Of a stretch of DNA of 35,841 nt, positions 751 through 1,301 are shown in pieces (within the stretch, counting starts at the first letter, position 1; every line of letters starts with the position of its first letter). The notes under the pieces were generated by a model, which saw nothing but the letters and a program-made list of their open reading frames with translations, was not told where the DNA came from and ran no database searches. The translations under genes were made by a program, and so were the position numbers. The stretch covers positions 1 through 35,841 of the forward strand of contig DUDM01000008.1 of assembly GCA_012959275.1 (NCBI GenBank). Direction: 5' to 3'. The DNA is from Candidatus Poseidoniales archaeon. Its GTDB lineage: Archaea > Thermoplasmatota > Poseidoniia > Poseidoniales > Poseidoniaceae.

Positions 751-1013
751 ATCACGATACACATCAACACATAACAGAAGGATGGGAGCACAGGGATGCG
801 AGTTCTGGACTGAAATTGAACATCACACATCGAAGGAAGAACGAGCGCCCGTGCGCCCATCACGATTCACATCAACACATAACAGAAGGATGGGAGCACA
901 GGGATGAGAGTTCTGGACTGAAACAGAACATTACACATCGAAGGAAGAACGAGCGCCCGTGCACTCATCACGATTCACATCAACACATAACAGAAGGATG
1001 GGAGCACAGGGAT
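751..1013. repeat. 108-bp tandem repeat (two full copies plus a 47-bp partial) that includes the tRNA-Trp 3' terminus
   Basis: ATCACGAT(A/T)CACATCAACACATAACAGAAGGATGGGAGCACAGGGAT starts at 751, 859 and 967; exact 108-bp period. Confidence 0.95.
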
Positions 1014-1181
1014 TTGAACCCCGACCAGCGGGTATCTTCTGATTTATTCCGCCGTTTTTGGCTTAATTTTCAGGTTTGACATGGGTTGGCGTTCCAGTTG
1101 TTCATCAACTTTCAGCAAACCCGTTTTTGTCATTCCCGTGCAATTGGAGCCCACGATACTACCAAGTTATACTATACTCCC
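999..1181 (-). tRNA. tRNA-Trp (anticodon CCA) with a ~110-nt intron after position 37 (exon 1 1144-1181; intron 1034-1143; exon 2 999-1033)
   Basis: Minus strand: exon 1 GGGAGTATAGTATAACTTGGTAGTATCGTGGGCTCCAA, exon 2 ACCCGCTGGTCGGGGTTCAAATCCCTGTGCTCCCA. Acceptor GGGAGTA/TGCTCCC pairs (one wobble); anticodon stem GTGGG/CCCGC pairs; T-arm CGGGG-TTCAAAT-CCCTG. An intron at 37/38 is typical for archaeal tRNA-Trp. Confidence 0.85.
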
Positions 1182-1193
1182 AAGTATACACCA

Positions 1194-1301
1194 TCAGAGC
1201 TTGGCCTGGCGTCGCGCACGCTTTCGTCGGCGTAGTTTCTTCTTACGCCACTTCCAACGCTGATTACCAGCTTTTTTCCACGCTCGGGAACCTCGCTTCA
1301 T
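1194..1301 (-). CDS. Candidate small ribosomal protein eL41-like (35 aa)
   Basis: Not in the ORF track (under 60 aa). ATG at 1301, TGA at 1196-1194: MKRGSRAWKKAGNQRWKWRKKKLRRRKRARRQAKL. C-terminal half resembles the eL41 WRKKRxRRLKRKRRK pattern; TATA-like TCATATAGTG lies about 30 nt upstream of the ATG. Confidence 0.65.
   Translation of the reverse strand: MKRGSRAWKKAGNQRWKWRKKKLRRRKRARRQAKL

Follow-up and report, generated by a model that had tools for sequence, protein, structure and literature searches.

Among the closest described counterparts of the locus analysed here is the tRNA-Trp intron of Haloferax volcanii, which guides methylation of C34 and U39 (PMC4090602, PMC7994747). H. volcanii cells without this intron are viable (PMC7714728, citing Joardar 2008). 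In Pyrococcus furiosus, the C at position 39 has already been predicted as a target (PMC7668247), and in other archaea the excised intron is circular (PMC9014305, PMC7714728).

The gene lies in a window comprising the whole 35,841-nucleotide stretch of DNA that was analysed, contig C8 of a MAG of 1.92 Mb (77% complete, 68 contigs). The host is a member of Ca. Poseidoniales (Marine Group II), a marine Thermoplasmatota archaeon; a haloarchaeon is excluded. Relatives from Ca. Poseidoniaceae and Ca. Thalassarchaeaceae, both in Marine Group II, carry the same tRNA-Trp gene. When the segment was searched on its own, Rfam RF00005 detected a minus-strand tRNA-Trp(CCA) gene at 1181-999 containing a long insert (36.2 bits, cut-off 29), while ARAGORN did not call a tRNA-Trp gene at these positions. 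The insert is an intron between positions 37 and 38, which matches the site of the archaeal tRNA-Trp intron that encodes a dual box C/D guide (Table 1). We are highly confident that this intron is an orthologue of that guide in which the C34 half has decayed. The best explanation overall, held with moderate confidence, adds that the 39 half is its likely remaining function.

Table 1. Features of the tRNA-Trp gene and its intron, in 5' to 3' order along the minus strand
Feature	Position in window	Strand	Basis
tRNA-Trp(CCA) 5' exon, positions 1-37	1144..1181	(-)	Rfam RF00005, 36.2 bits; orthologue alignment
Anticodon CCA in 5' exon (C34 = 1147, A37 = 1144)		(-)	orthologue alignment
110-nt intron, between positions 37 and 38	1034..1143	(-)	orthologous introns, 97-124 nt
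Guide-enclosing stem, 5' arm TTGCACGGG	1135..1143	(-)	relatives
Degenerate C box ATGACAA (86/86 intact relatives: ATGAYGA or ATGAAGA)	1127..1133	(-)	relatives
39 guide CGGGTTTG, 8 Watson-Crick pairs to C35-G42 of spliced tRNA	1116..1123	(-)	pairing, duplex energy
D' box CTGA, intact	1112..1115	(-)	sequence, relatives
D'-C' spacer, 4 nt	1108..1111	(-)	sequence
C' box TGATGA, intact	1102..1107	(-)	sequence, relatives
Decayed C34 guide CAACTGGAACG, mismatches at C32 and A37	1090..1100	(-)	relatives, duplex energy
Decayed D box CCAA (86/86 intact relatives: CCGA or CTGA)	1086..1089	(-)	relatives
Guide-enclosing stem, 3' arm CCCATGTCAA, weaker than relatives' CCCGTTGCAA	1076..1085	(-)	relatives
GAAG, intron strand of putative BHB central helix, pairs with C32-C35	1036..1039	(-)	relatives
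tRNA-Trp 3' exon, positions 38-73 (A38 = 1033, C39 = 1032)	999..1033	(-)	Rfam RF00005, orthologues

The putative BHB central helix is imperfect, as the first-pass annotation had judged by eye: C34 faces an A, an opposition that is conserved in intact relatives. The GAAG strand is kept in 87/89 introns that have a recognisable C34 guide.

Other features surround the gene. A very basic ORF of 35 codons (MKRGSRAWKKAGNQRWKWRKKKLRRRKRARRQAKL; 1194-1301, minus strand) ends 12 nt before tRNA-Trp and has no match in Pfam or NCBIfam. Because the same neighbour is found in 14/14 Poseidoniaceae loci among those listed, the ORF probably encodes a very small ribosomal protein; by eye it resembles eL41. Directly downstream of tRNA-Trp is a 108-bp tandem repeat (2.5 copies, 749-1013), each unit of which contains the last part of the tRNA-Trp 3' end and the trailer. 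An ORF on the plus strand (188-700) has weak matches, below cut-off, to a SprT-like metalloprotease and a zinc ribbon.

The first-pass annotation had proposed that the intron is a guide for position 39, and this part of its reading stands. The D' box, spacer, C' box, C-like element and a further CTGA all lie exactly where it placed them, the predicted 8-nt guide forms eight Watson-Crick pairs with C35-G42, and the D+5 register falls on C39, which faces the fifth nucleotide upstream of D'. GGGTTTG, CTGA and TGATGA are unchanged in this intron, unlike its C34 half. Coincidence is one alternative, and correctly spaced boxes alone did appear in 391/100,000 dinucleotide shuffles of the intron (0.4%). 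None of the shuffles (0/100,000), however, combined the boxes with an 8-nt guide matching the tRNA anywhere, and the class-wide conservation and compensatory changes described below already refute chance, which we regard as having practically no prospect of being correct.

The annotation had also held that the 39 duplex needs spliced tRNA. In the present genome the duplex does fit spliced tRNA better, with an energy of -12.1 kcal/mol compared with -8.2 on the precursor, where the last intron nucleotide gives a T.T mismatch. A need for spliced tRNA does not hold as a generality. The usual 39 guide in the host's family, GTGGGTTTG, is slightly better on spliced tRNA because its D'-adjacent nucleotide faces C35, but the guides GTGGGTTTC and GTGGGTAAT of the sister family fit the precursor better. 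Genus g10 was left out of the 39-guide strings and intron lengths, and its position-37 and C34-guide data were kept. A 2001 study is said to have described both guide duplexes as spanning exon-intron junctions of the precursor.

In all, 111 distinct tRNA-Trp genes were parsed, 89 with a recognisable C34 guide and 86 with intact C' and D boxes. The plan of the 86 distinct intact introns is near-invariant: C, 39 guide, D', C', C34 guide and D, in the common form ATGAYGA/ATGAAGA, 39 guide, D', TGATGA, CAACTGGAGC and CCGA/CTGA inside TTGCACGGG/CCCGTTGCAA. Conservation in orthologous introns had been suggested as the check on a guide origin, and the shared plan supports descent of the intron from the box C/D guide of tRNA-Trp. 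Of the two halves, the 39 guide is less stable in evolution, being degenerate or lost in several genera. The C34 guide targets GCTCCAG followed by TTG, that is, positions 31-37 plus i1-i3 of the unspliced precursor, with D+5 on C34. Ten unbroken Watson-Crick pairs are formed in 79/86 introns and eight pairs in the 7 others. A 22-nt pattern of C', guide and D (TGATGANCAAYTGGARCNCYGA) matched 166/347 genomes of the class, and the reversed control gave 0 matches.

Outside Poseidoniales, 12 further Thermoplasmatota genomes have the same module within tRNA-Trp introns. Phylum-wide pattern matches in G521 and G543 lie outside tRNA-Trp genes and were discarded. The 12 introns start with TTA, whereas those of Poseidoniales start with TTG, and by raw counts that ignore kinship the guide has changed from CAA to TAA in 9/12, with a wobble in 2 and a mismatch in 1. 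These compensatory changes, paired inside the intron, show that C34 is targeted in the unspliced precursor. In family f24 of the same phylum (L371-L376), the tRNA-Trp introns are compact, about 70 nt long, and consist of little besides a canonical box C/D sRNA; L372, for example, has ATGATGA and CTGA boxes. No tRNA-Trp was found in five MAGs of the host's genus (G001-G005), which incompleteness alone does not readily explain.

The C34 half has not been maintained in this genome. Where the first-pass annotation saw no clear guide for C34, a damaged remnant lies directly after C', and every relative whose intron is intact has a C34 guide there. Its D-like CTGA at 1073-1070 was rejected, as it is not conserved in relatives; the true D box site reads CCAA. 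The C34 duplex has an energy of -5.3 kcal/mol, compared with -15.6 to -18.1 in intact relatives. The first three nucleotides of the 5' arm of the enclosing stem double as part of the ancestral C34 target. The conserved G is missing from both boxes of the terminal C/D motif, and by sequence these boxes would not form a kink-turn; in 86/86 intact relatives box C still has its GA and box D reads CYGA. With two mismatches and no D box, a C34 guide in D+5 register is absent. With so degenerate a C/D motif, a particle that works in full is not to be expected. Archaeal C'/D' activity generally depends on the C/D motif too. A stand-alone C34 guide was sought elsewhere in the 77%-complete genome (G000) with one pattern, TTGGAGNNCTGA; none of its 16 matches has a C-type box within 70 nt upstream. 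Judged by its sequence, the intron would not be filed as a full dual-guide member, since its C box, D box and C34 guide fail; it is better described as a variant reduced to half a guide, in which the part directed at position 39 may still be active.

Apparent decay could also arise from assembly or sequencing error, the true gene being an intact dual guide. The gene is known from a single MAG, 77% complete and in 68 contigs, and it is near a contig end, adjoining the tandem repeat. The changes, however, are scattered over both boxes (C and D), the guide and the enclosing stem, and they accompany A37 in the exon, a state shared with other decayed lineages. We consider such an error very unlikely.

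Position 37 of the tRNA forms a Watson-Crick pair with the guide in 86/86 intact introns (81 G37-C and 5 A37-T, again raw counts that ignore kinship). The intact A37-T cases are genus g4 and genome G262; G064 is a further A37-T case with its boxes lost. A37 is also found where the C34 guide is damaged (this genome and G016), where the intron is scrambled (G043, G078 and G074), with the 41-nt intron of g19 and where the intron is lost (g11 and g17). Among genes that lack the intron, G37 persists in g15, in two genomes of g13 and in one of g3. Among guides that are recognisable but broken, 2/3 mismatch position 37, compared with 0/86 among intact ones. These counts suggest that an intact guide accompanies the matching base and that guide loss frees the site without forcing a change. 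Guide state and position 37 thus appear to be associated, and the cause could run either way. A divergent intronless tRNA-Trp (anticodon stem ACCGG/CCGGT, G37) was seen in L267-L276 (g15, all sampled), L288 and L289 (g13) and L290 (g3). Other members of g13 and g3 carry the intron-containing gene; the divergent copies in these two genera suggest gene replacement or transfer.

In the ancestral form, the C'-guide-D unit pairs with the 5' exon and first intron nucleotides of the precursor and would direct 2'-O-methylation of C34, and the C-guide-D' unit pairs around the 3' splice site and would direct methylation at position 39. Most Poseidoniales, and Thermoplasmatota outside that order, still have this dual guide in intact form. 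In the present genome the C box, D box, C34 guide and enclosing stem have decayed together with a change from G37 to A37. Fibrillarin and L7Ae genes are present in the genome. After splicing, the excised intron would bind both proteins, L7Ae at kink-turns and fibrillarin as the methylating enzyme, and would direct methylation. The most likely remaining function, to which we give about an even chance, would be that the excised intron directs 2'-O-methylation of C39 in trans.

Alternatively, the guide may be wholly inactive and the intron a relic kept only because it is still spliced; D', C' and the 39 guide would then have survived simply through lack of time for decay. The broken C34 half is consistent with this, and on this branch the 39 half shows no significant excess of conservation (0/17 changes vs 3/21, p=0.24). 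Folded without protein, the intron keeps most of the 39 guide paired, with an accessibility of 0.16; intact relatives within the family have 0.34-0.44. Related lineages show what later stages of decay look like: scrambled introns in L208, L210 and L211, a 41-nt intron in g19 and intronless genes in g11, g15 and g17. The dispensability of the H. volcanii intron, cited above, points the same way. Conversely, 21 consecutive nucleotides (GGGTTTGCTGAAAGTTGATGA) match the ancestral pattern, and the 39 duplex is entirely Watson-Crick here but contains wobbles in most relatives. A relic is a serious possibility, though a somewhat doubtful one.

A more specialised guide can also be envisaged, with a single target, working from the C'/D' motif alone without a kink-turn-competent C/D and acting only after splicing, the guide having held position 37 at G until it was lost. 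Action would be restricted to spliced tRNA because, with A37 and the last-intron U, the duplex is flawless there but imperfect on the precursor. We consider this scheme unlikely. A decayed dual guide with a 39 half that may still function remains our preferred reading: the locus is an evolutionary snapshot of a known guide, one half decayed and the other intact, and involves no new mechanism.

With these results, the known range of the intron-encoded dual guide takes in Marine Group II and other Thermoplasmatota. Poseidoniales form a natural series, from the intact dual guide through a half-guide and a scrambled or short intron to no intron, so that the reason for keeping a dispensable guide becomes open to direct test. 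Because position 37 tracks the guide, an intron may be able to limit how the anticodon loop of the tRNA that contains it evolves.

At one end of this series, the intronless tRNA-Trp genes of g11, g15 and g17 encode the same tRNA without intron or guide; A37 is present in g11 and g17, as here, whereas g15 has G37. Two Rfam families preserve the undecayed form. The sR3 consensus (RF01133), AUGAUGA..CGGGUCUg-CUGA..UGAUGA..UUGGAGCaCUGA, is the same dual guide. Against its cut-off of 41 bits, the phylum relative L372 passes with 46.2; the score is 32.5 for an intact copy from Poseidoniales and 18.3 for the present intron. sR40 (RF01297) has CGGGUUUG-CUGA and UGAUGAAC..UGGA in common with this intron, which scores 17.3 bits (cut-off 50); sR40 is without the decay. 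The guides of H. volcanii and Pyrococcus (Cm34, with Um39 or C39) agree with the present one in the 37/38 site, in D+5, in both targets and in the order C-guide39-D'-C'-guide34-D. This intron differs from them in that its C34 guide, C box and D box are degenerate, position 37 is A, and its 39 guide favours spliced tRNA over the precursor.
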